Positions 5,061 through 53,658 of a stretch of DNA of 64,000 bases are shown here, piece by piece. The notes below the pieces were generated by a model that saw only the letters and a list, made by a program, of their open reading frames with translations, did not search any database and was not told where the DNA came from. The translations under genes were made by a program, and so were the position numbers. Positions within the stretch are counted from its first letter, which is position 1. Each line of letters begins with the position of its first letter. This stretch comes from Pseudomonadota bacterium (GTDB lineage: Bacteria; Desulfobacterota; Binatia; Binatales; Binataceae): contig JAJPIF010000003.1 of assembly GCA_021324885.1 (NCBI GenBank), forward strand, positions 1-64,000, read 5' to 3'.

Positions 5061-5969
5061 TTACTGCGTTTCTCGGCATACCGGGCATTGCTCCGGGTCC
5101 GCCGCTTTCTCCGCCAGGATTCGATCTTCTTCGGTCTGATACTGCGGGGTGTCGAGGCGTTCCGTGCGATCGTCCTGGCCGCTGAATGCTTCGAGCTTCC
5201 AAGCTTCGTCCTCCGACCAGATGAATGGCAGCATCTTGACCGACCCGGGTGTGGCCAGCGACTCGAAGGCTTCAAGCGCCTCGCGCATGATTTCGCGCTG
5301 GAGTTGCGGCTGATGCGGTTTGCCGGTGGTATGGCCCAGCGGGAAGTCAAGGAATGCGGCGCGTGGCGGATTGACGGCGCGGGTGATGTCGAGCGCGCTG
5401 GACATACATAGAGTCGGGATGCCGGCGGCTTCGGCGGCGCGGGCAATCAGTCCGACGGACTGATGGCATACCGGTCAGACCGGCACCAGCAGCGCGAGGT
5501 CCGCGCGTTCGGCCAGCAATCTTTGAGTGATGCGGGGCGCCAGCTCTTCGCGCACGCGCCGGGCCGAATAGATCCCGCCCATGAACGTATAGGCGTAATC
5601 GGCCAGTTCACCGATAAAACCCTCGCACACCAGGGCGCGCAAGGTATCGATTGGAAAGACCACGTTGGGGTCCGCGCGTGCGTCGGTCTTGTCGTAGGCG
5701 AAATGCGAGATCCGCAAATCGCTGGTCCGCACTGTTTTGGGAATCGCGCGCAAGCTGGTGTCGTCCCTGTGATGGAACGCGATCTGGCCGGCGGCGTAGA
5801 TGCCGCCGGAAGCGATTAGCGCCAGGCGCGAATGCGCCAGCGGCTTGCTCAGCGCCTGCCACGGCGGCGGTCCGGGATTGATAACCCATTGATAGGGTTG
5901 GTACCCGAGCTTTGCGTACTGATTGCGAATGCGCGGTATGTATTGCACTGGTCCCATCGGCAATTCCAT
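5061..5969 (-). CDS. GrdB-like (glycine/sarcosine/betaine reductase selenoprotein B family) selenoprotein, in-frame UGA
   Basis: Reading UGA 5477-5475 as Sec gives one 302-residue protein, with U165 in VPVUPVCHQS. Both halves belong to the short family related to glycine/sarcosine/betaine reductase subunit B: SHFAYDKTDARADPNVVFP and AYTFMGGIYS before the UGA, GIPTLCMSSALDITRAVNPP and FLDFPLGHTTG after it. In GrdB the Sec carries out reductive cleavage; the substrate of the short family is unknown. U165-P-V-C168 is mirrored by a C-terminal C295-P-V-C298, which could form an internal relay. A SECIS-like hairpin follows the UGA. The start was taken at MELPMGPVQY from family resemblance; its ribosome binding site is weak, and upstream TTG 6029 is also in frame. 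It is divergent from the UGSC operon. Confidence 0.9.
5446..5464 (-). promoter_or_regulatory. SECIS-like hairpin of the GrdB-like selenoprotein
   Basis: Ten nucleotides after the UGA the mRNA can form a perfect 8-bp stem (AUCAGUCC/GGACUGAU) closed by the 3-nt loop GUC. UGA-to-loop distance is 18 nt and the loop opens with G-U, matching the bacterial SECIS consensus recognised by SelB (short upper stem, guanosine at loop start, 16-37 nt from the UGA). It lies inside the coding sequence. Confidence 0.8.
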
Positions 5970-6049: not shown

Positions 6050-6086
6050 AGCCTTATTCCGGGTCGCATCAGGGAGAGGATTGATT

Positions 6087-7115
6087 ATGGCAACCGCGAC
6101 CGATGACCCCATCGAGATGATGTATGAGCGCGGGGTAACCGACGGACTGCCCGTGGTTCCTCCGACCCGGGAGCGCGTCGAGCGGATGCTGGCGGGCGCG
6201 CCCTGGCGCAAGCGCGATGAGTTAATCGGCGTGCTCGGCCCGCAAATGGGCAAGGCGACCGTCGAGAAAGTGGCAATCAACGCGGTGATGGCGGGTTGCA
6301 AGCCGGAGTACTTCCCCGTCGTGCTGGCCGGAGTGGAGGGGTTGTGCGACACGGCCCTTTGCGCGCATGGGCTTAGTATCACGCTGATGTCGGGCGCGCC
6401 GCTGGCGATTATCAACGGCCCGGTGCGCAACCGGATTGGCCTGAACTGCGGCCACAACGCGCTTGGCCATGGGTTTCGCGCCAACGCGACCATCGGCCGC
6501 GCGATGCGCCTGGTGACGATGAATATCGGCGGCGCGCGGCCCCATGGAGTGACCAAGGCAACGATGGGCCATCCGGGCCAGTACAGTTTCCTGGTCGCCG
6601 AAAACGAGGAAATCTCGCCGTGGGAGCCGTTGCACGTCGAGCGCGGTTTTAAGCGGGAGGACTCGACCATCACCTTTTTCGGCGGGACGGGATTTTTCCA
6701 GATCGCCGATTTCGGCAGCAGCACTGCCGAAAAGCTGGTCTCGACGATCGGCGGCACCATGGGCGGCGGGATCAATAATTATCGCGAATATCCCCTGATG
6801 TCCGACACCGTGCTGATCCTGAGCCCAGAGCATGCCCATACGATTGCGCGCGACGGATGGTCGAAGCAGGACGTCAAAAAATATTTGTACGAGACGGTGG
6901 TGCGCCGTCCCGAGGAGCCGCGGCCGGCCCCCCGCGGGCGCGCCGCCAAATGGACGACGGCAGACGGCGCGGTGCGCAAATTCCGCTCCCCTGACACAAT
7001 CATCATAGTAGTGGCGGGCGGTACCGCAGGGCGCCTTTCGGTGGTCATACCGGGATGGGTTTCCGAGGAATTGGCCGGCAGCGCGCCCGTGAGCAAATTG
7101 ATCAGGCTTGAATAG
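6087..7115 (+). CDS. Conserved protein, probable partner of the UGSC selenoprotein
   Basis: This 342-residue soluble protein has no signal peptide or membrane segment. Recognisable conserved blocks are TDGLPVVPPTRERVERML near the start, INAVMAGCKPEYFPVV, a Gly/Asn/Cys-rich core (NGPVRNRIGLNCGHNALG), and a Gly-rich GGTMGGGINNY. I recognise it as a protein that recurs beside UGSC-type selenoproteins, from recall and not from a search; its activity is unknown. The UGSC gene starts 59 bp downstream on the same strand, so co-transcription is likely. ATG 6087 follows AGGGAGAGG; the TTG at 6081 is less likely. The conserved Cys residues could exchange electrons with the Sec protein, which is inference. 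Confidence 0.75.
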   Translation: MATATDDPIEMMYERGVTDGLPVVPPTRERVERMLAGAPWRKRDELIGVLGPQMGKATVEKVAINAVMAGCKPEYFPVVLAGVEGLCDTALCAHGLSITLMSGAPLAIINGPVRNRIGLNCGHNALGHGFRANATIGRAMRLVTMNIGGARPHGVTKATMGHPGQYSFLVAENEEISPWEPLHVERGFKREDSTITFFGGTGFFQIADFGSSTAEKLVSTIGGTMGGGINNYREYPLMSDTVLILSPEHAHTIARDGWSKQDVKKYLYETVVRRPEEPRPAPRGRAAKWTTADGAVRKFRSPDTIIIVVAGGTAGRLSVVIPGWVSEELAGSAPVSKLIRLE

Positions 7116-7174
7116 GCGGTGTGAAAATCGCTATGCAGGATTGGACAGGGATTTATGCAAAAGGAGGCGCGTGA

Positions 7175-7717
7175 ATGGCAGACGATATTCTGGACCCGAC
7201 TGGTTTTGACAGCAGCCAGCCGGCCAAACCGATGGCCAAGCGTCTGGATACTCTGAAAGGCAAAAAAATCGGCCTGCTGGATATCGGTTTCCCCAACGGC
7301 GGCGTCTTCCTGGATCGGGTCGAGGAGCTGCTCAAGACCAGGTATGGCGTAGCTGAAACGATGCGGCGCGCCAAGCCCAGCCCCGCCCGCCCGGCCAAGG
7401 ACGAAGTGCGAAAGGAGTTGATCGAGGGCTGCGACGCAATCGTCGAAGGCCTGAGCAGTTGAGGGTCGTGCATGTCGTGCAGTTCGCACGACACCGCATA
7501 CTTTGAGGAGCAGGGGGTGCCGACGGCAAACGTCGCCACCACCGAATTCCGCGAGGCCGGCCGGATCCAGTACACCAATCTCGGCTTTCCCGACTATGAC
7601 ATCGTTTTCGTGCCGCATCCAATCTTTCCCCAGACCCGGGAAGAGACATTTGCCAAGGCGGACGCCGTGGTCGAAGAGATCGTAAAGCGGCTGACCCAAG
7701 AACAGGGCAAACGCTGA
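7175..7717 (+). CDS. UGSC-motif selenoprotein, in-frame UGA
   Basis: Reading UGA 7460-7462 as Sec joins two half-frames into a 180-residue protein with the motif U96-G-S-C99-M-S-C102 followed by HDTAYFEEQGVPT. This is the diagnostic motif of the UGSC (seleno)protein family. The N-terminal half (KIGLLDIGFPNGG...GCDAIVEGLSS) looks like a Rossmann-type beta-alpha fold that places the Sec at the end of a strand; the C-terminal half (GFPDYDIVFVPHPIFPQ...) completes it. The U-x2-C-x2-C arrangement suggests a thiol/selenol redox centre; the substrate is unknown. AAGGAGG lies 7 nt before the ATG. A SECIS-like hairpin follows the UGA and a strong terminator follows the gene. A caller treating UGA as stop would report a 95-residue and an 81-residue ORF. 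Confidence 0.93.
7474..7492 (+). promoter_or_regulatory. SECIS-like hairpin of the UGSC selenoprotein
   Basis: Eleven nucleotides after the UGA lies a perfect 7-bp stem (GUCGUGC/GCACGAC) with the loop AGUUC. The loop begins 18 nt after the UGA and has G-U at positions 2-3, as expected for a bacterial SECIS. A second GUCGUGC at 7465-7471 could pair alternatively and form a competing structure with a larger loop. Confidence 0.82.
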
Positions 7718-7859: not shown

Positions 7860-9023
7860 TCAAATATTATCCCGCACATCAGCGCGGCGCATCTTCCACA
7901 GAAAACCGTCCATGTAGAAATGGACGAGCGATTCGTAAACGGCGTAATAAAACAGCCACGCGGCGCCGGTCAGGCCGAAGAACTCCATCGGATGCGCCGA
8001 CTTCATTATGATCGTGCCCCACGACGCCTGAAGCATCCCGAGCGCCGCGAATATCGCGATGAAACCGATGTACCAGGCCCGGGGACAGCGCAGCAGCCGT
8101 TCCATCGTCGAGGGCTGCGGCTGCGGACGGGCGTAGCGGCGGCGCTGAAACGCCCACACAAACACCATGTACTCGACCGCATGGCTGAAGCCGAACGCGA
8201 TGTACGCTTCCACCGGGTTGGCCCAGAACAGCGTGGTGGAAAGCGCCAGCATCCCGGCGGCGGCGGACATTCGCGGACGGTTCTGGAAGCGGCGCGTGCG
8301 CCATTCGTGCCATAACCATAATCCGACGCCGGCAGCCGCAATCGCGGCGGTGGGCGCGATCAGCCAGCGCTCGCTTCGTTCCATGAAAGAGATGATCCAC
8401 GACAGGGGCCCTTTGACGTCAGAACCGTTGGCCAGGATCAGGTACTTGTATTTGGGCGCCAGGAAACTCAGGTAAAGCGGAATCCAACACAGAATAAAGT
8501 ACTTATCGACCCAGGCCGGCGTATTGGGCCGGAGCGCAGCCGCATGCTTGGCCTGATACAGCCGCAAAATCCCGAATTTCTGCATGTAAACGTGCCAGAG
8601 GTTCCACAGCAGCGAGAAGAAAACCATCGTACCCACAACGGCGGCGCCGATCGCACCCCCACGATTCAGCAGCAACGGCGTCGCCGCCAACATCAGGATA
8701 CAGAGCTGCGGAAACCAGGTGAGCTGGCGTTCGAAGCGATGGAACACGTCACGGTCGAGATAAGCGTAGGGCAGTCCAAAATGGCGATGGGCCAGGTTGG
8801 CGCCCATCACGAACGCATAGATGTAGTAGACGGTCATTTCCTGGCGGGCGAAGAACATCGGCAACAACACCCACGCCCAACTGAAGTGATAGGCAACGAT
8901 GTCGATCGCCGGCGAGACGTGCCAGTCGGGGCTGCTCTGCTCAGGAGCGAGCGGGCGAACGTAGCGATCCCAAAATCCGGGCACCGCCGAGTCCGGGTCG
9001 ATTTTTTGCGCCAGCGCCCCCAT
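7860..9023 (-). CDS. Multi-pass integral membrane protein of unknown function
   Basis: This 387-residue protein has about eight to ten hydrophobic segments spread along its length. Several His residues sit in or beside them: AYHFSWAW, NLAHRHFG, LLWNLWHVYMQKFG, AFGFSHAVEYMVF, and SLVHFYMDGFLWKMR near the C-terminus. The His pattern recalls membrane di-metal or haem enzymes, but I cannot place it in a family. It is convergent with the UGSC gene and separated from it by the terminator. It starts at ATG 9023 with no strong ribosome binding site. Confidence 0.7.
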   Translation of the reverse strand: MGALAQKIDPDSAVPGFWDRYVRPLAPEQSSPDWHVSPAIDIVAYHFSWAWVLLPMFFARQEMTVYYIYAFVMGANLAHRHFGLPYAYLDRDVFHRFERQLTWFPQLCILMLAATPLLLNRGGAIGAAVVGTMVFFSLLWNLWHVYMQKFGILRLYQAKHAAALRPNTPAWVDKYFILCWIPLYLSFLAPKYKYLILANGSDVKGPLSWIISFMERSERWLIAPTAAIAAAGVGLWLWHEWRTRRFQNRPRMSAAAGMLALSTTLFWANPVEAYIAFGFSHAVEYMVFVWAFQRRRYARPQPQPSTMERLLRCPRAWYIGFIAIFAALGMLQASWGTIIMKSAHPMEFFGLTGAAWLFYYAVYESLVHFYMDGFLWKMRRADVRDNI

Positions 9024-9221: not shown

Positions 9222-9289
9222 AAGCTTTGACACCCGCGCCCGAAGGTGCGATTCGTAAGGCCAGCAATCCCGCTTCGAGGAGCGTACGC

Positions 9290-10255
9290 ATGAAGATCAA
9301 TACGGTTTTGGGAAGCTGCGACGCCGCCGATCTGGGCCCGACCCTGGTCCATGAGCATCTGCTGACCGGGATGCCCGGCTCACACCTGGACGCTGCGGAC
9401 TTTGATCGTAAGCGCGAATTCGGCAACGTCGTCGAGGCGGTGGACAAGGTCAAGGCGCAGGGAATTTCCACCATCATCGACCCGTGCCCGATGGAATTGG
9501 GGCGCGATCCTGAATTCGCCGCCGCCGTCTCCGACCGCACCGGCTTGCGCGTGATTATGTCCACCGGGCTTTACAACGACGCGATGGGAATCCCGACCCA
9601 TTTCCGCATGCTCGATTCAGACGAGATCGCGGAGTTGTACGTGCGCGAAATCACCGAAGGGATCGGCTCTACCGGCATCAAGGCCGGCCTGATCAAGGCG
9701 GCCAACAGCGGGATGAAGGGATTTCCGGGAGAAAAAGGCATCACGCACGTCGAGGAGAAAGTGTTCCGGGCGGCGGCGCGCGCGCAAAAGGCGACCGGCG
9801 TGCCGATCCTGGTCCATAACAGCGAAACCGCGCCCTTCGGACGCGAGGTGCTGGACATCCTGGGCAGTGAAGGCGTGGAACCCAAGCGCGTGATGATCGG
9901 CCACGCCTGCGGGGTGGGCGATATGCGCTACTACTTCGATATCCTTGAGCGTGGCGCCTGGCTCGGCTTCGACCGCTTCGGGATCGAGATGGTCGCGCCG
10001 GACCGGCTGCGGCTGGCGTCGCTCATCGGGCTGATCGGCGTGGGGCATGATCGGATCATGCTGGCCCACGACACCGTCAACTGCTGGTTGGGACGGCTGG
10101 GCAAGAGCATGCGCAACATGCTCAAGAACTCGCCGAAATGGAAACTGACTCACATAAGCGAGGATATCCTGCCCGCGCTGCGCAAGGCCGGCATCACCGA
10201 AGACGCAATCGATAAACTGATGGTAAGAAATCCACGCGATTATTTCGCGGCGTAA
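9290..10255 (+). CDS. Phosphotriesterase-family metal hydrolase
   Basis: This 321-residue TIM-barrel amidohydrolase belongs to the PTE family. Metal ligands are visible in order: HEH at the first strand (LVHEHLL), the bridging carboxylated Lys candidate in GIKAGLIK, the His residues in PILVHNSE and MIGHACG, and the Asp in LAHDT. Family members are lactonases, phosphotriesterases or formamide hydrolases; the native activity is more often lactonase than organophosphate hydrolysis. The start at MKINTVLG follows a GAGGAG site; an upstream in-frame ATG (9227) falls next to the repeat cluster and is unlikely. It is followed 47 bp on by another amidohydrolase, probably in one operon. Confidence 0.88.
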   Translation: MKINTVLGSCDAADLGPTLVHEHLLTGMPGSHLDAADFDRKREFGNVVEAVDKVKAQGISTIIDPCPMELGRDPEFAAAVSDRTGLRVIMSTGLYNDAMGIPTHFRMLDSDEIAELYVREITEGIGSTGIKAGLIKAANSGMKGFPGEKGITHVEEKVFRAAARAQKATGVPILVHNSETAPFGREVLDILGSEGVEPKRVMIGHACGVGDMRYYFDILERGAWLGFDRFGIEMVAPDRLRLASLIGLIGVGHDRIMLAHDTVNCWLGRLGKSMRNMLKNSPKWKLTHISEDILPALRKAGITEDAIDKLMVRNPRDYFAA

Positions 10256-10302
10256 AACAGGCCACGGGCACGGCGGACCATGCAAGATCAACGGAGGCGA
10301 TC

Positions 10303-11994
10303 ATGGATTACGATCTTAAAATTACCGGCGCAACCGTAATCGACGGCACCGGCAAACCCGGCGTGCCGGGCGACGTCGCGATCAAGTCAGGAAAAATCGC
10401 GGCACTTGGAAACGTCCGCGGCGACGCCGCGCGGACGATCGACGCGGGCGGGTTGGCGGTCACACCCGGCTTCGTCGATATCCATACCCATTACGACGCA
10501 CAGATTCTGTGGGATCGGATGCTGACGATCTCGCCCTGGCACGGCGTGACCTCAGTGGTGTTCGGCAATTGCGGCTTCGGCGTCGCGCCGACCCGCCCCG
10601 AGCATCGCGGGCTGATCATGCGCACGCTGGAGAAGGTCGAGGGCATGAGTATCGACGCGCTGGAGGGCGGACTCGGCTACGACTGGCCGTTCCAGACCTT
10701 TCCCGAATACCTCGACGCGCTGGAGCGGCGCGGCGCCGCGATCAACTTCGGCGCCCTCATTGGCCATACTCCCGTGCGCCTGTTCGTGATGGGCGAGGAG
10801 TCGATGGAACGCGCCGCGACCGAAGCCGAGATCGCCCGGATGCGCGGGATCGTGCGTGAGGCACTGGACGCCGGCGCGATCGGATTTGCGACCTCCAAGG
10901 CATTCACGCACATCGGTTATTTGGGTAAACCCGTTCCCAGCCGCTTCGCCGAGTTCAGCGAGATCGAAACGCTGACTTCGACCCTGGGCGAGGCCGGGCG
11001 CGGCGTGGTGGAAGTAACTCCCGGCACCGGCCTGATGTACGACGAATTCGCCCAGATCGTGCGCCGCAACGGCCGGCCAATCACGTTCGCGATGGTGACC
11101 GGCGCGGGCGGTCCCGGCGCCCATCGCAAGGGCATGCAGAGGGCGCACGAACTGATCGAACAGGGACTGCCGCTGGTGCCGCAGGTGATCGGCCGCCCGG
11201 TCGTCAACGAGGTCTGCTTCAAGGATCCGTTCGTGTTCGAGAACCTGGATTTCTTCCGCCCGGTTTCGCAGGCGCTGGAGATCGACGGCAAGATGCGCGT
11301 GTACGCCGATCCCGCGTTCCGCCGCACCTTCAAAGAACACGTCGCGGCGGGCAAAGGGCCGCTGGGCCAGCGATGGAACTACGATCAGACGTGGATCACA
11401 TACTGCCCCACTGAGCCGGAACTGGAGGGGCGGACGCTGGCCGAAGTAATGCGCGAGCGCGGCAAGGACGCCGTCGATCTGACATTGGATTTGGCGATCG
11501 CGTCGCGGCTGGAAGCGCGCTTCCTGATGTCGCTGTTCAACAACGACGAGGACGAAGTCGCCCAGCTTTTGACCGATCGCGCCACCGTGATGGGCCTGTC
11601 GGATGCGGGTGCCCACATGAGCCAACTCTGCGACGCCTGCTCATACACCCATCTGCTGGGCCATTGGGTGCGCGAAAAGCAACTTCTCGCGCTCGAAGAA
11701 GCGGTGCGTATGATCACCTCCCGTCCTGCCGAGGTGTTCGGACTGCGGGATCGAGGCGTGCTGAAGGTAGGCGCGCCGGCCGATGTCACGGTGTTCGATC
11801 CGAAAACGGTCGGCGCCAGCCGTCTGCGCCGCGTCAACGACCTGCCGCGCGGCGCCGCCCGTCTGGTTGCCGACGCGATCGGCGTCGAGATGGTGATCGT
11901 CAATGGCACACCGATCCGCGAGCACGGCAAGGACGTCGTCGATTGTGCGGGTCCGCTGCCGGGCAGGCTATTGAGAGGCGGCGCCGCCGCATAA
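10303..11994 (+). CDS. N-acyl-D-amino-acid deacylase-like amidohydrolase
   Basis: This 563-residue protein is of the D-aminoacylase/amidohydrolase-3 type. It shows the N-terminal beta-sandwich start (YDLKITGATVIDGTGKPG), the first metal motif in FVDIHTHYDAQILWD, a catalytic Asp region in VMGLSDAGAHMSQLCDA, and the C-terminal strand region APADVTVFDPKTV. Its length is typical of the longer members found in environmental bacteria. It would hydrolyse an N-acyl amide or cyclic amide; the substrate is not determinable. GGAGG lies just upstream of the ATG. It probably shares a transcript with the phosphotriesterase-family gene upstream and the CoA-transferase downstream. Confidence 0.88.
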   Translation: MDYDLKITGATVIDGTGKPGVPGDVAIKSGKIAALGNVRGDAARTIDAGGLAVTPGFVDIHTHYDAQILWDRMLTISPWHGVTSVVFGNCGFGVAPTRPEHRGLIMRTLEKVEGMSIDALEGGLGYDWPFQTFPEYLDALERRGAAINFGALIGHTPVRLFVMGEESMERAATEAEIARMRGIVREALDAGAIGFATSKAFTHIGYLGKPVPSRFAEFSEIETLTSTLGEAGRGVVEVTPGTGLMYDEFAQIVRRNGRPITFAMVTGAGGPGAHRKGMQRAHELIEQGLPLVPQVIGRPVVNEVCFKDPFVFENLDFFRPVSQALEIDGKMRVYADPAFRRTFKEHVAAGKGPLGQRWNYDQTWITYCPTEPELEGRTLAEVMRERGKDAVDLTLDLAIASRLEARFLMSLFNNDEDEVAQLLTDRATVMGLSDAGAHMSQLCDACSYTHLLGHWVREKQLLALEEAVRMITSRPAEVFGLRDRGVLKVGAPADVTVFDPKTVGASRLRRVNDLPRGAARLVADAIGVEMVIVNGTPIREHGKDVVDCAGPLPGRLLRGGAAA

Positions 11995-12109
11995 CATTGG
12001 CTATAACACATGCTCTTGCCCGGCGAGCTGGCGGGGTTAGGCGTCCCTGCCCGCCCCACCAGCTCAAGATGACGAAGGAAAAACTCCACTCATTCGGAGA
12101 CATCGAAAC

Positions 12110-13360
12110 ATGACGGACGCTTTGGACGAGGGCGCGCTGGACGGGGTGCGGGTGATCGATTTCACCAATTACATCGCGGGGCCGATCGTTACCCGCTTTC
12201 TGGCCGACATGGGCGCGGAGGTGATCAAGCTCGAACTGCCGCCGCGCGAGACCACCGTCTCGCCGCGCTTCAACAATAAAAACTTCGGCGCGGCTTATCT
12301 GTCCGTCGCCTTTGCCCTATGGAATCGGGGCAAGAAAAGCGTCTGCCTGGATTTCCACAAACCGCAGGGACTGGCGATCGCCAAAGAATTGGTGCGGCGC
12401 GCCGATGTCGTGGTGGAAAACTTCAGCCCCGGCGTGATGGAACGCGCCGGACTCAGTTACGACGAACTGCGCAAAGTCAATCCCCGCATTATCATGGTAT
12501 CGGTCTCCGGATGCGGCCAGACGGGACCGCTGGCCCATCGTCCCGGCAACGACCACGTCGCCCAGGCGCTGTCCGGCGTGATGGATCTGACCGGGTACCC
12601 GGACCGTGCGCCCGCGCTGCCCGGATACTTCATCGCCGACAACAACGGCGGCGTGCATGGCGCGATTGCGGTGTGCGCGGCGCTGTTCCGGCGCGAGCGC
12701 ACCGGGCGCGGCCAGCATATCGATATTTCGATGGTCGAAGCGCTGTTTCATCTGCACGACATGGGACTGGTCGAGCATCTGGCCAGTCACGGCGAAGCCA
12801 GGCCGGCGCGGATGGGGTCGCATCATCCGAGCACCTCGCCCTGCGGAGTGTTCGAGGCGCGCGACGGCTATGTCGTGATCACCGCCCTGGTCCATCATTG
12901 GGAGCATTTCGTAAAGGTCATCGGCAAGCCCGAACTGCTGGCCGATCCACGCTTCAATCCAGCCCAGCGGCGCGCGGAAAACCGTTTGGAGCTGGTGCCG
13001 ATAATCGAAGGATGGCTCAAGTCATTCCCCAGCCGCGACGACGCGCTGAAGATCCTCAACGCCAATCATATCCTGGCGGCGCCGGTGCTGAGCGTGGCAC
13101 AGGCTATGGAGCAGCCGCAATTCGCCGAGCGCGGTTTTATCCAGCACGTCGAGCATCCGGAAGTGGGCGACCTACCGCTGCCGTTAACGCCGCTGCGTTT
13201 TTCCGAAAGTGCAACCAGGATCGCGCGCCCGGCGCCGCGAATCGGTGAGCACAACTTGAGCGTGCTGAGCGCTTACCTGGGCTATACCCAGGCGCAGGTC
13301 GAAGAGCTGACCCGCAGGGGAATACTGGTCCGCGAACCTGCCGCCGCGCAATGCTCGTAG
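12110..13360 (+). CDS. Type III CoA-transferase (CaiB/BaiF family)
   Basis: This 416-residue protein has the family III CoA-transferase signature: GVRVIDFTNYIAGP at the start, LADMGAEVIKLE, the SVCLDFHKPQG segment, VVENFSPGVMERAGL, and the catalytic Asp in LSGVMDLTGYPD. The enzymes move CoA between carboxylic acids through an enzyme-aspartyl anhydride. Together with the upstream hydrolases it suggests activation of a carboxylate released by hydrolysis. It is one of four CoA-transferase genes in the window (also 22305, 62723 and the right edge). Confidence 0.92.
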   Translation: MTDALDEGALDGVRVIDFTNYIAGPIVTRFLADMGAEVIKLELPPRETTVSPRFNNKNFGAAYLSVAFALWNRGKKSVCLDFHKPQGLAIAKELVRRADVVVENFSPGVMERAGLSYDELRKVNPRIIMVSVSGCGQTGPLAHRPGNDHVAQALSGVMDLTGYPDRAPALPGYFIADNNGGVHGAIAVCAALFRRERTGRGQHIDISMVEALFHLHDMGLVEHLASHGEARPARMGSHHPSTSPCGVFEARDGYVVITALVHHWEHFVKVIGKPELLADPRFNPAQRRAENRLELVPIIEGWLKSFPSRDDALKILNANHILAAPVLSVAQAMEQPQFAERGFIQHVEHPEVGDLPLPLTPLRFSESATRIARPAPRIGEHNLSVLSAYLGYTQAQVEELTRRGILVREPAAAQCS

Positions 13361-13467
13361 TCAGCGCTCTCAGGACGAATCATCCGACGTTCGCGCCGCA
13401 GTTGACGGCGCAGGCTCGGTAGAGCAATTAACATAGGGGTTCTAAAGCCGCGTGGAGATTTGGGCTG

Positions 13468-14100
13468 GTGGAAGCCTTCAAATCCCAAAAGCTGGAGGAA
13501 GAGCAGGGCGAAGTTCTGCGGGCGGAACGCTCGCTGCTGGCCGGCGTTCGCCAACTGATCGGAATCCAGGAATTATTGACCGTCATGATGGTGGTGGCGG
13601 CCGTTTCCAGCGCGATCGCAACCTGGAAGGCGACGCAGATCTATGCGCGCGGCGAGCGTCCCTATATCGGCGTGGCTTCGATCAAGCTGAGCACCGACCT
13701 GGCTAATCGCCCCTACGTCGCGGTGGATTACCGGAATTTCGGCACGGTGCCATCGCGCCACACCGTATTGACGGCATGGACCACGGTCGATGGCGCCATC
13801 GCGAGCTACAATCCGCGCAAACCCGGGCAGCGCAAGGTGCATCTGAAGCTGGGAATTCTGTCTCCCGACTCACCGCACCTGTTGGCCGCCTATTTCACAC
13901 CCGACGCGCTGCCCGCGATCCGCGATGGCCGCGCCAAGCTGAAGGTCTCAGTAGCAATCAGCTACCAGGGCGCCGACGGCCAGCCGTACTGCTACCGGAT
14001 GGATTTCCGCTATTTCTGGCCAACCGCCACGCTGGACCCTGACGGAGGTTCGGACGACTGCGGCAAGGACGGCGCTTTACCAACCGACGCCGCCGATTGA
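13468..14100 (+). CDS. Hypothetical membrane-anchored protein
   Basis: This 210-residue protein of no recognised family starts at GTG. A charged N-terminal helix (about 1-30) precedes a single transmembrane segment (about 35-57, LLTVMMVVAAVSSAIATW). A probably periplasmic beta-rich domain follows, with YIGVASIKL, YVAVDYRNFGTVPSRH and AISYQGADGQPYCYRMDFRYFWP, ending in an acidic tail with one Cys pair. The domain organisation resembles other single-pass proteins with an Ig-like external domain. It follows the CoA-transferase by 107 bp. Confidence 0.6.
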   Translation: MEAFKSQKLEEEQGEVLRAERSLLAGVRQLIGIQELLTVMMVVAAVSSAIATWKATQIYARGERPYIGVASIKLSTDLANRPYVAVDYRNFGTVPSRHTVLTAWTTVDGAIASYNPRKPGQRKVHLKLGILSPDSPHLLAAYFTPDALPAIRDGRAKLKVSVAISYQGADGQPYCYRMDFRYFWPTATLDPDGGSDDCGKDGALPTDAAD

Positions 14101-14287
14101 ACGCCACCGCTTCTTCGTCCCCGCAGGGCCCGGCGGGTACGACGGCACGCTTGACCGCTGAGCTTTTTGGCGCGTTTATAAGCTGTCCCGCTCGCAGCCG
14201 TCCGAGGACACTTGAAGCAGCGCTGCCCAGCGGAGCAAGCTTGTACCATAAAAGCGTTATCGCGTGATTTTCGCATTGGAGGACGGC

Positions 14288-15493
14288 ATGGCCACCGCAA
14301 ATCAGGAGACGAAGACCAACGGAGCTGCCCGCGATTCCCTGGCCGGGATCAAAGTTATCGACGTCGACACCCATCTGACCGAGCCGCATGACCTGTGGAC
14401 ATCGCGCGCGCCCGCCAAATGGAAGGATCGCGTGCCGCAGGTCAAAATGGTGGACGGCAAGCGCCAATGGATTATTGACGGCGACCGCCCGATGGCGGTG
14501 GCCAATCCATCCAGCGTGGTGAAACCCGACGGCGCCAAGGCCCGCGGCATCGAATTTCTGAAATGGGAAATCGAAGAGGTCCATCCCGGGTCCTATGATC
14601 TCGAGCCGCGTCTGGCCTTCATGGACGGCGAAGGCATCTGGGCCCAGATCATCTATCCCAACCTGCTCGGGTTCGGCGGCTTGCGCGCGGCCACACTGGA
14701 TCCCGAATTGCGCCTGCTGTGCACCCAGATCTTCAACGATGCGATGGCGGAGATGCAGCAGCAGTCGCGCAACCGCATTTTCCCGATGGCACTGATGCCG
14801 TGGTGGGATATCGACGCCACCGTCAAGGAAGCGCGGCGCTGCCATGCGATGGGACTGAAGGGTGTGAACACCAATTCCAGCCCCCAGGACCATAAGGTGC
14901 CCGACCTCGGCGAGCGCCACTGGGATCCGTTCTGGGAGGTTTGCGCGGAACTCAATCTCCCGATCAATTTCCATATCGGATCGAGCACCGAAGGAATCGA
15001 CTGGTTCGGCAAGGCGCCATGGCCTTCACAATCGGTGGACCGCCGGATCGCACTGGGCTCGACGATGCTGTTCATGCACAATTCGCAGATCTTCGCGAAC
15101 ATCATCTACTCCGGTCTGCTGGAGCGCTTCCCGACGCTGAAGTTTGTGTCGGTCGAAAGCGGGGTCGGCTGGATGCCCTTCCTGCTGGAAACACTGGACT
15201 ACGAACTGGAAGAGGCGGCGCCCAAGGCCAAAAAAATTCTGACCATGAAGCCGTCGGAGTACTTCAAGCGCAACGTCTATTCCTGCTTCTGGTTCGAGGA
15301 CGAGGGGCTGCACAACGCGATCCGGTCGGTGGGCGTGGATAACATCATGTTCGAGACCGACTTTCCTCATCCGACCTGCCTGTATCCCAATGCGCTGGAT
15401 CGCGTCGCCCATACCCTGGAGGGTCTGGACTTCGAGGCCAAGCGCAAGCTGCTCAGCGCCAACGCCGCGCGCGTCTATTCGATTCCGGTCTGA
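14288..15493 (+). CDS. Amidohydrolase-2 family metal-dependent hydrolase
   Basis: This 401-residue member of the amidohydrolase-2 family is a distant relative of the protein at 3739. Markers are VIDVDTHLTEPHDLW (first metal motif), INFHIGSSTEG (barrel His), KFVSVESGVGWMPF and the C-terminal metal Asp in IMFETDFPHPTCLYPN. Family members decarboxylate or hydrolyse aromatic and alicyclic acids. The ATG at 14288 follows GGAGG; a GTG at 14264 would add 8 residues. The next gene encodes a flavin-dependent monooxygenase, and the pairing is common in catabolic loci. Confidence 0.88.
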   Translation: MATANQETKTNGAARDSLAGIKVIDVDTHLTEPHDLWTSRAPAKWKDRVPQVKMVDGKRQWIIDGDRPMAVANPSSVVKPDGAKARGIEFLKWEIEEVHPGSYDLEPRLAFMDGEGIWAQIIYPNLLGFGGLRAATLDPELRLLCTQIFNDAMAEMQQQSRNRIFPMALMPWWDIDATVKEARRCHAMGLKGVNTNSSPQDHKVPDLGERHWDPFWEVCAELNLPINFHIGSSTEGIDWFGKAPWPSQSVDRRIALGSTMLFMHNSQIFANIIYSGLLERFPTLKFVSVESGVGWMPFLLETLDYELEEAAPKAKKILTMKPSEYFKRNVYSCFWFEDEGLHNAIRSVGVDNIMFETDFPHPTCLYPNALDRVAHTLEGLDFEAKRKLLSANAARVYSIPV

Positions 15494-15697
15494 TTCCGGG
15501 TCAGGCGACTCCGTCCACCTTTTTTCCGCAATGCAGTGCGCCGAGGCGACAAGGGTGCGCGCCCGGGCGCTCTTGCGCTCAGCGCTCACTTGTGTTCGCT
15601 TGTCGCTGCGCACTTGGGCATTTCCGCAGGAGTGTGTTATCCAAGTCATGGCGGCTGGATCTAACTTCGCCGCGCGCCGTTGCGGAGGGATTTCGGC

Positions 15698-16942
15698 ATG
15701 AAGATCTCCATGTTCCATCTGATGCCGTATCGCGAACTACCCGCGGATTTCGAAAAGCGTTACCACTCGGTCTGGGTCGATCCGCCGTTTTGGGAACTGG
15801 CCGAGCCGGAGAAGGTGGGCCAGTACTACAACTGGACGCTGGACGAATTGATCCACGCGGCGCGCTGCGGGATGGACGGGATCTGCGTCAACGAACACCA
15901 CCAGAACGCCTACGGCTTCATGCCCTCGCCCAACGTGATGGGTTCGGTGCTCGCGCGCGCGACCAACGGGATGAACACGGCGATCGTGCAGATGGGGGCG
16001 ACGCTGCCGACTACCAATCCGCCGATCCGCGTGGCCGAAGAGTACGCGATGCTCGATTGCATCAGCGGCGGGCGGCTGGTTGCGGGGATGCCGCTGGGCT
16101 CCCCGATGGACGTCAACCTGTGCTACGGAATCAGTCCAATCGAACAGCGCGAGCGTTACTACGAAGCCCACGACCTGATTCTGAAAGCGTGGCAAAGCCG
16201 TGAGATCTTTGCCTGGAACGGCAGGTTCTTCCAGTTGCCGATGGTCAACCTGTGGCCGCGTCCGATCCAGAATCCACATCCACCCGTCTGGGTGCCGGGC
16301 AGCGGCAGCCTGAGCACGTGGGACTTCTCGGCCAAGCACGATCACTGTTACTGCTTCCTGAGCTATTATGGGAACAACGTCGGCAAGAAAATCATGGACG
16401 GGTTCTGGGAATTCGTTTCAAAAACGAAGCTCGAACCCAATCCCTATCGCGCGGGCTTTCTGCAGCTGGTCGCGGTTTCGCAAACCGACGCCCAGGCCGA
16501 GCAGGAGTATTTTCCCCATATCCGCTACTTTTATGACAAATGCCTGCACATCGCGCCGGAGCTGCTCGCAATCCCGGGCCATCAGGACTATCGCAGCCTC
16601 GTGCATTCGGTGAAAAATATCGCGCCCGAGCAGATGCAACTCATGGCGCAGGTGCCGAACTGGAGGTACCGCGACTTCGTTGAAAACCAGTTCGTGATCG
16701 CCGGCAGCCCCGCCACCGTGCGCGATCAGCTCATGGCCGCGGTCAAAAAGCTGCGCGTTGGCAATTTGATGGTGCTGCTGCATATCGGGTCGATGCCGCA
16801 CGAGTTGACGCTCAAGAACATCGAACTGTTTGCGCGCGAGGTGATGCCCCATTTCCGCAGCGTTTGGGACGAGGACGGATGGGTCAACAACTGGTGGCCG
16901 CAGCGTCTGCGCAATGGCGCCGCCCGGGCCAGCGCGAATTAG
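15698..16942 (+). CDS. LLM-class flavin-dependent oxidoreductase (luciferase-like monooxygenase)
   Basis: This 414-residue protein has the bacterial luciferase-like TIM barrel: MKISMFHLMPYREL at the start, GMDGICVNEHHQN, GATLPTTNPPIRVAEEYAMLDCISGGRLVAGMPLGSP, and a C-terminal part with VIAGSPATVRDQL. These enzymes use FMNH2 or F420 to oxidise or cleave small organic substrates. The GGAGG site at 15684-15688 fixes the start at ATG 15698. An alpha/beta hydrolase and an SDR follow at short spacing (36 and 16 bp), giving a likely three-gene unit. Confidence 0.9.
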   Translation: MKISMFHLMPYRELPADFEKRYHSVWVDPPFWELAEPEKVGQYYNWTLDELIHAARCGMDGICVNEHHQNAYGFMPSPNVMGSVLARATNGMNTAIVQMGATLPTTNPPIRVAEEYAMLDCISGGRLVAGMPLGSPMDVNLCYGISPIEQRERYYEAHDLILKAWQSREIFAWNGRFFQLPMVNLWPRPIQNPHPPVWVPGSGSLSTWDFSAKHDHCYCFLSYYGNNVGKKIMDGFWEFVSKTKLEPNPYRAGFLQLVAVSQTDAQAEQEYFPHIRYFYDKCLHIAPELLAIPGHQDYRSLVHSVKNIAPEQMQLMAQVPNWRYRDFVENQFVIAGSPATVRDQLMAAVKKLRVGNLMVLLHIGSMPHELTLKNIELFAREVMPHFRSVWDEDGWVNNWWPQRLRNGAARASAN

Positions 16943-51385: not shown

Positions 51386-52633
51386 ATGGCAACTTCAACG
51401 CTCGATACAATCGATATCCTGACTCCGGACCTTTACGTTGAGCGCGGATATCCGCACGAGGAATGGACCCTGTTGCGGCGCGAAGCGCCGGTGTTCTGGT
51501 ACGAGCGCGAAAATTGCGCTCCGTTCTGGGCGATCACGCGCCACGCCGACATCATCACCGTCTCGCGCCAGCCGGAGTTGTTCCGCGCCACCCAGCGCCT
51601 GTTTGCCACTATCGATGAACCTGGAGTACCGCCGCCCGAAGAAGCCCTGCTGCGCCAACTGCTCAACATGAATCCTCCCGAGCACGGCGCCTATCGGGCG
51701 GTGGTAAGCCGGCGCTTCACTCCGGCCGCCGTCCACAGGCTGGCGGGCCATGTCCAGGAAATCGCGCGGCAACTGATCGACGAAATAGCCGATCGCGAGG
51801 AATGCGATTTCGTCACGGAGGTTTCCGCCAAGCTGCCCCTGGCGGTGATCGCGGAAATGTTTGGCATTCCGCGCTCGGACTGGCAGATGATGTTCCGGCT
51901 CAGCAACGCCATGATCGGCGCAACCGACCCCGAGTACATGCGCGGAGGGACGATCATGGAAGGGCTGCAACAAGCGCGTCTGGAGTTTTTCCAGTACTTC
52001 AGCCATCTGGTGGAGGATCGGCGCAAAAATCCGCGCGACGATCTGGCCACCGCGCTGGCCCTGGGGCGGGTTAACAGCGAGGAGCTGCCGGCGTTCGAGT
52101 TGCTCTCATATTTCGCGCTGTTGATCATTGCCGGCAACGAAACCACGCGCAACGCGACCACGGGCGGCCTGTTCGCGCTGATTAACAATCCCGAGCAATG
52201 GGAACTGCTCAAACGCGATCCTTCACTGGTTCGCTCCGCGGCCGAGGAAATCATCCGCTGGACTTCGCCGGTGATTCAGTTCATACGCGCGGCAACGGCG
52301 GACACCGAATTGCACGGCCGCAAAATCCGCGAAGGCGACGTGCTGGCGCTGTTTTATCCTTCCGCCAACCGCGACGAGGATGTTTTCGACCATCCTTTCA
52401 AATTCGACGTCAGGCGCACGCCCAATTATCACCTGGCCTTTGGAATCGGCGAGCATTTCTGCCTGGGCGCAAATCTGGCGCGGCTGGAATTGCAGATGAT
52501 CTTCCGCGAGATAGCGGCGCGGCTGGACCAGGTTGAGCTGGCCGGACCAATCGCGCGGATGCGTTCGAGCTTCGTCGGCGGCATCAAACACATGCCGATC
52601 CGGTACAAGATGCGCGCCCGGTCCGCCGCCTGA
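51386..52633 (+). CDS. Cytochrome P450
   Basis: This 415-residue soluble P450 has the I-helix motif AGNETTRN (249-256), ExxR at E288-R291, and the haem Cys359 in FGIGEHFCLGANLARLE. The spacing and the AGNET variant are those of CYP125/CYP142-like and other actinobacterial-type enzymes that act on alkyl chains or sterol side chains. The redox partner is not in the immediate neighbourhood. It is 75 bp downstream of the deacetylase gene and convergent with the F420-type oxidoreductase. Confidence 0.95.
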   Translation: MATSTLDTIDILTPDLYVERGYPHEEWTLLRREAPVFWYERENCAPFWAITRHADIITVSRQPELFRATQRLFATIDEPGVPPPEEALLRQLLNMNPPEHGAYRAVVSRRFTPAAVHRLAGHVQEIARQLIDEIADREECDFVTEVSAKLPLAVIAEMFGIPRSDWQMMFRLSNAMIGATDPEYMRGGTIMEGLQQARLEFFQYFSHLVEDRRKNPRDDLATALALGRVNSEELPAFELLSYFALLIIAGNETTRNATTGGLFALINNPEQWELLKRDPSLVRSAAEEIIRWTSPVIQFIRAATADTELHGRKIREGDVLALFYPSANRDEDVFDHPFKFDVRRTPNYHLAFGIGEHFCLGANLARLELQMIFREIAARLDQVELAGPIARMRSSFVGGIKHMPIRYKMRARSAA

Positions 52634-52640
52634 AAATCGA

Positions 52641-53567
52641 TCAGGCAAATGCGGGCATCACTTCTTTGGCGAAGGTCTCGATCGTTGGCGCCGCCGAACC
52701 GTCGCTGAAGAAGACGATGAAGGTGGTCACGCCTTTGGCGACGCGATCCTTGAGTGCCGCGACCAGTTCCGAGGGTGTTCCCTTGATCGCGGTGGTGGCA
52801 AACGGCTTCATCCGGCTGGCGAACTGCCATTTCTTTTCAACGTCCTCGGTGCTCGATCCGAGGCAGACCAGCAACTGCTCCGAGATTTCGATCTGACTGA
52901 AATCGCGGCCCACCGCCCGGCAATGTTCTTTCAGCGCGGCGGTCAGGCCGGCGATATCGGGATAGCCGCCGGGGATGTTCCAGCGATCGGCATATTTGGC
53001 AACGATGCGCAGCATCACCTTTTTGCCCGCGCCGCCGATCGTGATCGGCGGATGCGGTTTCTGGACCGGCTTCGGATTGTTGTAGGCGTCGTTCACGCTG
53101 AAATAGCGCCCCTTAAACGCCGCCCTGGGCTCGGTGAACATCGCCTTGAGAATCTGGATCGTCTCCTCGAGCTGCTTCAGGCGCACGCCGACCTTGGGAT
53201 ATTCGAAACCGTAGGCCTGAAATTCCTCGCGCATCCAGCCGATTCCCAGGCCCACATCGAGGCGCCCCTTGCTGATTTGATCGATCGCGCACAGCACCTT
53301 GGCGAGCATCGCGGGGTTGCGGTAAGCGTAGCAGATCACCAGGGAGCCCAGCCGGATCCTTTCGGTCTGTGCCGCCAGTCCGGTCAATGCGGCAATCACG
53401 TCAAGATGGTCCAGTTCGGGCATCGCGCGGGTCCACATGTGGTCATCGAGCCAGATCGAATGAAAACCCAGACGCTCGCACATTTGCGCACGCGCCAACA
53501 GTGATTCGAACGACAGACCGCTTTGCGGAGAGAAGATGCCAAACCTGATTTTGCCGTCGTGTGCCAT
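52641..53567 (-). CDS. LLM-class F420-dependent oxidoreductase
   Basis: This 308-residue luciferase-like protein resembles the F420-dependent subgroup: KIRFGIFSPQSGLSFESLL, GFHSIWLDDHMWTRAMPELDHLDVIAALTGLAAQTERIRLGSLVI, LDVGLGIGWMREEF, and PPITIGGAGKKVMLRIVAKYADRWNI. F420 use is inferred from these markers. The start at MAHDGKIRF follows GGAGG. It converges with the P450 gene and has the MFS gene upstream on the same strand. Confidence 0.9.
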   Translation of the reverse strand: MAHDGKIRFGIFSPQSGLSFESLLARAQMCERLGFHSIWLDDHMWTRAMPELDHLDVIAALTGLAAQTERIRLGSLVICYAYRNPAMLAKVLCAIDQISKGRLDVGLGIGWMREEFQAYGFEYPKVGVRLKQLEETIQILKAMFTEPRAAFKGRYFSVNDAYNNPKPVQKPHPPITIGGAGKKVMLRIVAKYADRWNIPGGYPDIAGLTAALKEHCRAVGRDFSQIEISEQLLVCLGSSTEDVEKKWQFASRMKPFATTAIKGTPSELVAALKDRVAKGVTTFIVFFSDGSAAPTIETFAKEVMPAFA

Positions 53568-53658
53568 GGGACCTCCCGGCAATGTCTGAAGCCGTTGAAA
53601 CTGTTTGGCACGGAGCCGCCGTCGCGATCAATACGTCCGCGCCGCGATTCGTTGCTGA

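Follow-up and report, generated by a model that had tools for sequence, protein, structure and literature searches.

Background and locus

UGSC-family proteins were described from the Global Ocean Sampling (GOS) metagenome, where 255 forms with selenocysteine (Sec) and 21 forms with cysteine were counted and where the family was in places fused to a domain called 'Unknown_1' (PMC2398784). A 2026 review counts UGSC with the proteins whose functions are for the most part uncharacterised (PMC13188914), and three Geodermatophilaceae genomes carry a tRNA-Sec with anticodon CUA together with selenoproteins of the UGSC motif (PMC5330540). The gene examined here lies in the first 64,000 nucleotides of contig JAJPIF010000003.1 (assembly GCA_021324885.1, a bacterium of the Binataceae), a stretch that we call the window, and is very probably a UGSC-family selenoprotein gene with a UGA codon at the U of the motif (Table 1). 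Both the family and its use of Sec have been published before, and membership is not new; what appears to be new, by inference, is a distant kinship of UGSC with the Sec proteins GrdB and PrdB, a regular partner protein, a link to thioredoxin and the carriage of UGSC in cassettes of Sec genes.

With the TGA read as U the gene gives one uninterrupted protein that runs through U96-G-S-C-M-S-C and then HDTAYFEEQGVPT, and the standard code splits it into open reading frames (ORFs) of 95 (7175-7462) and 81 (7472-7717) amino acids. This bears out the preliminary description, which had put the UGA exactly at the U of UGSC, had followed the downstream half without a break to a matched C-terminus and had expected conventional calling to yield two fragments. 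The comparison of the joined protein with the UGSC family that it proposed gave matches above cut-off to both PF24696 (residues 4-175 on profile positions 1-172, E 8.1e-48, 163.2 bits against a cut-off of 25) and NF041046, the 'UGSC family (seleno)protein' model (132.5 bits, cut-off 125). At the first motif position, where family members carry either Sec (encoded by UGA) or Cys, the window gene has its TGA. The gene itself shows no difference from the published family, agreeing with it in the full-length profile match and in Sec at the U; the window copy is unfused.

A redox centre of the form U-x2-C-x2-C had also been suggested. The window protein does carry this pattern, but only part of it is general: the Cys three residues after U is kept in 87 of 88 distinct UGSC sequences with exactly one U, and the position six after U is Cys in 61 of the 88 and Trp in 19, making C102 of the window protein no feature of the family. 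A selenenylsulfide between U96 and C99 is plausible.

Table 1. Features of the window (strand + or -) and loci in which a UGSC pair lies near sel genes.
Feature	Position or loci	Strand	Details and basis
UGSC-family selenoprotein gene (very probable)	7175..7717	+	180 residues with UGA read-through; stop TGA 7715-7717
TGA codon, Sec 96 (very probable), U of UGSC motif	7460..7462	+	TGA-as-U translation, family sequences
Ribosome-binding site AAAGGAGG	7160..7167	+	sequence
SECIS-like (selenocysteine insertion sequence-like) hairpin	7474..7492	+	7 pairs, 5-base loop AGUUC; folding, shuffles, covariation, RNAalifold
Partner protein	6081..7115	+	344 aa from TTG or 342 aa from ATG at 6087; ORF, neighbourhood comparison
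Second hidden selenoprotein, PrdB/GrdB-like	5061..5969	-	TGA 5475-5477 (LLVPV-U-PVCHQ); divergent from UGSC pair
Loci with UGSC pair and nearby sel gene(s)	L082, L087, L088, L090, L093, L098, L100, L106
Loci with UGSC pair and nearby sel gene(s), remainder	L108-L111, L115, L119, L122, L133

Relationship of UGSC to GrdB and PrdB

Profile comparison shows the Sec half of UGSC to be remotely homologous to the Sec domain found in GrdB/PrdB, the proteins of glycine, betaine, sarcosine and D-proline reductases. A UGSC profile aligned by hhalign with 21 GrdB/PrdB-type proteins gave 95.5% (E 1.4e-8, columns 82-177 on 171-258), with Sec placed on Sec and the C-terminal halves co-linear, and the same query gave 1.8% with the reversed GrdB alignment, 0.4% with the thioredoxin-like extensions described below and 0.1% with the partner protein. 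Both groups have U-x2-C after a strand, then a helix, a GIP motif and a proline-rich HP/PLG stretch; unlike GrdB/PrdB, UGSC has 180 residues, and it aligns only with the C-terminal half. The UxxCxxC motif associated with GrdB/PrdB occurs in the window protein, its third position being Cys in 61 of the 88 UGSC sequences mentioned above.

A hidden Markov model (HMM) of UGSC, searched against 921 neighbour ORFs plus reversed decoys, ranked GrdB and PrdB-type proteins directly after the true UGSC pieces, with four GrdB at 30.3 to 25.0 bits, the remaining GrdB/PrdB-type proteins at 9.4 bits or less and the best other ORF at 4.7 bits. The reverse search with a GrdB-type HMM found 19 of the 88 UGSC sequences at E<1e-3 (best other ORF 0.076). 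PF24696 itself matches a GrdB in one genome of the phylum (G358; 4.2e-5, 24.8 bits) at a place also matched by TIGR04483, which by eye lies within grd-like genes resembling a grd operon. No mention of this kinship stood in the passages available from the papers that a search on UGSC listed.

The AlphaFold2 model of UGSC (predicted local distance difference test, pLDDT, 93.7) has five beta-alpha units in a run, with Sec96 between the third strand (88-94) and the helix 97-112. Its listed matches in the PDB are mixed alpha/beta proteins, including receiver domains, lumazine synthases and small GTPases, with VIA Z up to 11.4 for an arrangement that is common. The GOS paper of 2008 described UGSC as having a 'likely Trx-like fold' (PMC2398784), which seems doubtful because of the five beta-alpha units in the model; neither the succession of secondary-structure elements in the model nor the 0.4% from hhalign supports a thioredoxin fold. 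No thioredoxin stood among the PDB matches listed, which alone proves nothing.

A partner protein encoded next to UGSC

By comparison of neighbourhoods, the product of the gene just upstream is the usual partner of UGSC. It was adjacent to or fused with UGSC, whole or in part and within 1.5 kb flanks, in 30 of the 31 loci that were retrieved with UGSC as the sole query (L001, L002 and L026-L054). The window's genome holds a second UGSC (L002, G000:C29:232065-232592, - strand), also with an in-frame TGA and in that case fused to a partner domain. Scanning named genomes with the partner found at least 585 confirmed relatives, the best 80 of which were kept as named loci. UGSC occurred within the stretch in 70 of these 80, a proportion biased upwards because the partner alignment had been built from members found at UGSC loci or at plasmid loci related to them; the U codon was visible in 69 of the 70 and was always TGA, the last locus (L067) ending before it. 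Over all loci, 17 UGSC/partner pairs stood in one frame without TAA or TAG between them, 14 of them in the order UGSC-partner, and some of the 17 are possibly separated by a real TGA stop. A clean UGSC-partner fusion is found at L132:7383-8984 (534 residues, one TGA). We infer that the published 'Unknown_1' fusion domain is the partner described here. Five Poribacteria loci (L069, L070, L071, L076 and L079) gave a shorter partner match and had no UGSC in the stretch examined.

At a threshold of 0.001 neither Pfam nor NCBIfam gave a match for the partner, 26 members of its family had no consistent match to Pfam, and a comparison with PDB sequences gave no notable relative, HisF rows standing near 0.02. 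Twenty positions were invariant in 50 partners: D19, G20, P22, A63, N65, V67, A69, G70, C71, P77, G111, N120, G129, N133, G137, R138, N146, E172, W179 and G187. C71 is the sole invariant Cys among the 50; one member of the earlier set of 26 (L053) has Ala there. UGSC and partner were modelled as two separate proteins, the partner with a pLDDT of 90.3. Its model had no Foldseek match at E<=0.001, the best rows being class I fumarate hydratases (7xky_A, E 1.5e-3, probability 0.77), and every VIA Z was below 8. With no Pfam or NCBIfam match and only this weak fumarase likeness, an assignment of the partner to GrdE/PrdA or to any other named family found no support.

Link to thioredoxin

A phmmer search (one query, position within the stretch ignored) showed that 54 of the 80 named loci have a thioredoxin-like domain along with the partner. 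It takes the form of an in-frame extension N-terminal to the partner with a CxxC motif, often CPTC. Extensions of at least 100 residues were present in 60 of 84 partner genes, and 54 of these 60 had CxxC, or about 51 once evident wrong frames (L064, L102 and L122) are removed. A profile of 22 extensions matched thioredoxins of solved structure (2o85_A, E 1e-6); single extensions gave mostly weak matches to the thioredoxin-like families of Pfam, the best at 8.2e-7. Separate thioredoxin-system genes were also seen: Arthrobacter sp. ERGS1:01 has the order trxB, trxA, partner, UGSC, in Roseovarius sp. THAF8 the UGSC/partner pair is followed by trxB, and Variovorax sp. SRS16 has trxB near a partner gene. 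Clostridial grd operons likewise start with trxB and trxA. Glycine reductase is linked to thioredoxin (PMC13188914), and these gene arrangements suggest that UGSC may take its electrons from thioredoxin as well.

Proposed function and alternatives

The reading to which we give somewhat better than an even chance is that UGSC and its partner form a two-subunit, thioredoxin-dependent reductase of the GrdB/PrdB kind that cleaves a carbon-heteroatom bond. The partner would bind and activate the substrate, and the selenolate of Sec96 would attack a carbon and displace from it the leaving group (N, S or halogen) that it bears. Cys99 would then resolve the selenium adduct, giving an Se-S bond and releasing the reduced product, and a thioredoxin, whether fused, encoded nearby or the cell's own, would reduce the Se-S bond. 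A described parallel is FarEB, the fluoroacetate reductase candidate of Synergistota, a GrdB-like pair whose GrdB-type Sec protein is proposed to attack the C-F bond of fluoroacetate (PMC10838667). Unlike the UGSC system, FarEB consists of full GrdB and GrdE homologues and is found in anaerobes (PMC10838667). Together with its regular partner and the link to thioredoxin, a Sec domain resembling that of GrdB would move UGSC from an 'unknown redox protein' to a specific, testable reductase proposal.

Several observations weigh against the reductase reading. The homology to GrdB/PrdB is remote and covers about 80-90 residues; against PrdB-like proteins alone hhalign was weaker (48.5% and 82.4%), and the UGSC HMM reached E<0.001 with only 4 of the 21 GrdB/PrdB-type proteins, the set searched being small. 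Because the window protein matched neither PF07355 nor TIGR04483 at E 0.001, UGSC is to be called a homologue of GrdB/PrdB and not a member. GrdB and PrdB work with GrdE and PrdA, whereas the UGSC partner showed no likeness to either in family searches, which leaves pyruvoyl activation unsupported. The pairing itself has exceptions: one Sec UGSC gene (L204, G284:C14) has no partner within about 8 kb, and 10 of the 80 partner loci, five of them from Poribacteria, had no UGSC in the stretch. As to thioredoxin, only 3 of the 80 named loci had a separate trxB passing 80 bits, and no locus had a separate trxA passing 25 bits. In the window itself the partner lacks a thioredoxin domain, and neither trxA nor trxB was matched.

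The UxxC motif and the thioredoxin-system genes close to some UGSC copies would also suit a general thiol/selenol-disulfide oxidoreductase or a thioredoxin-type peroxidase. We regard this as unlikely: the Sec is predicted to follow the third strand of five beta-alpha units, the thioredoxin-like extensions align with UGSC at the level of the controls, and many partners already bear a separate thioredoxin-like domain. A role in detoxifying electrophiles, selenium or metals instead of in catabolism is rather improbable too. Sec is a soft nucleophile, and in L176, which comes from another genome of the same family, the pair lies amid genes that look like housekeeping genes by eye, but the plasmid loci place UGSC amid CoA-transferases, lyases, amidohydrolases and solute transporters. 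We put at slightly poorer odds again the idea that UGSC and partner form a lyase, hydratase or isomerase, in which Sec would serve as a nucleophile with no net reduction. It would account for the class I fumarate hydratases at the top of the partner's Foldseek rows, but that likeness falls short of both E<=0.001 and a VIA Z of 8, a single invariant Cys (replaced by Ala in L053) is unlike the cluster ligands of class I fumarases, and the thioredoxin link implies a reduction step.

Probable selenocysteine at the UGA

The UGA very probably encodes Sec at position 96, because the genome has Sec machinery, most relatives carry a TGA and a hairpin after the codon is under selection at the RNA level. 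Absence of the machinery, or homologues that all stop at this codon, had been named in the preliminary description as grounds for giving up Sec, and neither was found. Its proposed check for selA, selB, selC and selD returned one SelA (567.6 bits, E 1.9e-170), one SelB above cut-off (374.5 bits, E 7.1e-112), SelD (376.4 bits, E 1.5e-112) and a tRNA-Sec (70 bits) with anticodon tca by ARAGORN; a second place above the Rfam cut-off for tRNA-Sec is a tRNA-Ser. The SelD gene (L020, G000:C21:37640-38566) itself has one in-frame TGA.

Among 395 genomes of the phylum, with at most eight candidates scored in each, 38 had matches to the UGSC family, one of them solely through a GrdB. These comprised 85 places, 78 with a TGA inside and 7 without, the search reporting the presence of a TGA and not its position in the match. 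Setting aside the GrdB of G358, 77 of 84 UGSC places read through a TGA, and one of the 77 additionally has a TAG and a TAA. In the 88 one-U sequences, a set that by its selection excludes Cys forms, the TGA is at the motif and G follows U in 87. A Cys form occurs on a Halorientalis plasmid (L056).

Downstream of the window's UGA the RNA folds at -19.8 kcal/mol (z -2.44, 6 of 200 shuffles equally stable). Over 84 genes, the 45 bases after the UGA were more stable than synonymous-codon shuffles (mean z -1.35), and control stretches of the same genes had no excess stability (z +0.09 further downstream, -0.22 upstream). Paired tests of the 45-base stretch against the downstream and upstream controls gave 1e-10 and 5e-8, values that are optimistic because the genes are related and not independent. 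The window's seven-pair helix was assessed on 76 of the 84 stretches, leaving out the eight most divergent (L048, L050, L047, L053, L051, L052, L002 and L135:3558), whose inclusion would reduce the paired percentage and of which at least L048 and L050 have a different hairpin. On these 76, 88.3% of cells were paired and 33 double changes were counted against 9.1 in shuffles, with none of 500 shuffles reaching any of the five measures. Slid versions of the helix were lower in cells paired, double changes and covariation score, one slide tying in pair types. Pair 16-32 is not formed in 27 of the 76 stretches and pair 15-33 in 31, and RNAalifold recovered the five inner pairs independently. A telling case comes from rows with Trp (TGG) in place of the Cys (TGC) six after U: the base opposite is then C instead of G, and the pair is preserved; this opposite base is the last of the next codon but one, and in several rows the change is the synonymous GTG to GTC. 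As judged from these alignments, the family shows RNA-level selection on the hairpin.

The alternative of a genuine stop or a sequencing error at the UGA, with a broken gene, could appeal to the single assembly that represents this genome, but it has next to no likelihood given the TGA in 77 of 84 places of the phylum and at the motif in all 88 sequences, the selection on the RNA and the Sec machinery.

Putative cassettes of UGSC and selenocysteine genes

Published accounts have Sec genes travelling together with formate dehydrogenase in fdhA/fdoGHI-selABC(D) clusters (PMC1794560, PMC8124441). Looking at most 8 kb to either side, we found selA, selB and selC each in 15 of the 80 named loci, and selD, searched with one query, in at least 4. 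At least one of the four was present in 16 loci, mostly from alpha- and gammaproteobacteria (Table 1). As in the fdh clusters, for which gene transfer has been proposed, the Sec machinery lies beside a selenoprotein gene. In contrast to them, this gene is UGSC, and a Sec formate dehydrogenase was looked for without success: in the 16 cassette genomes, for which completeness figures are not stated, no formate dehydrogenase alpha subunit scored above cut-off. Ten of them had weaker matches, of which one alone contains a TGA, and that one is a fragment of 82 residues broken by several stops. UGSC with TGA was present in all 16, at 17 places, and SelD was above cut-off in 15, without a TGA. The literature accessible to our search, which excluded most subscription journals, held no description of a UGSC-sel cassette.

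More tentatively, and at distinctly less than even chances, UGSC and its partner may be a small and perhaps oxygen-tolerant counterpart of glycine and proline reductases in soil and marine bacteria, a thioredoxin-driven selenoenzyme for the reductive cleavage of carbon-heteroatom bonds that passes from one bacterium to another in selA/selB/selC cassettes and provides its hosts with a reason to use Sec other than formate dehydrogenase. Such clusters of sel genes with UGSC offer a possible reason why certain proteobacteria that lack a Sec formate dehydrogenase retain the costly 21st amino acid.

Gene neighbourhood

A second hidden selenoprotein is encoded divergently from the UGSC pair (Table 1). 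It matches PF07355 (E 1.2e-10) and TIGR04483 (161.4 bits, under the cut-off of 300), and a weak hairpin follows its TGA (z -1.72, 11 of 200 shuffles equally stable). TIGR04483 matches, GrdB types included, occurred in 99 of the 395 phylum genomes, none above cut-off. We considered this PrdB-like protein as a component of the UGSC system and kept it as a neighbour only, its link to UGSC being rare elsewhere. With the window protein as phmmer query it was absent from the 80 named loci, and the nearest relative of the locus (L058) has no PrdB-like gene in its 8 kb flanks. When the two phylum lists, each based on a limited number of candidates scored per genome, were compared by eye, a PrdB-like gene and UGSC lay within about 4 kb solely in the window's genome and in G160; the overlap of the lists in G358 is one GrdB gene.

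On the other side of UGSC, the gene at 7860-9023 (- strand) encodes a 387-residue protein that looks membrane-bound by eye and that neither Pfam nor NCBIfam matched at 0.001. Further downstream are a phosphotriesterase-family protein, amidohydrolases, a CoA-transferase III and a luciferase-type monooxygenase. Catabolic genes of these kinds (phosphotriesterase family, amidohydrolases, CoA-transferase III, luciferase-type monooxygenases and a cytochrome P450) occupy 9227-16942 and 51386-53579 of the window. The UGSC plasmid of Halorientalis carries CoA-transferases, a CoA-ester lyase and a luciferase-type enzyme, and that of Natrinema a CoA-transferase, an amidohydrolase and lyases. These surroundings hint at the breakdown of organic acids or amides. 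Naming a substrate from the gene neighbours was dropped, as clusters judged by eye from their first residues point to general catabolism only. At the haloarchaeal plasmid loci (L056 and L198), UGSC is accompanied by one or two copies of the partner, with CoA-ester enzymes adjoining.
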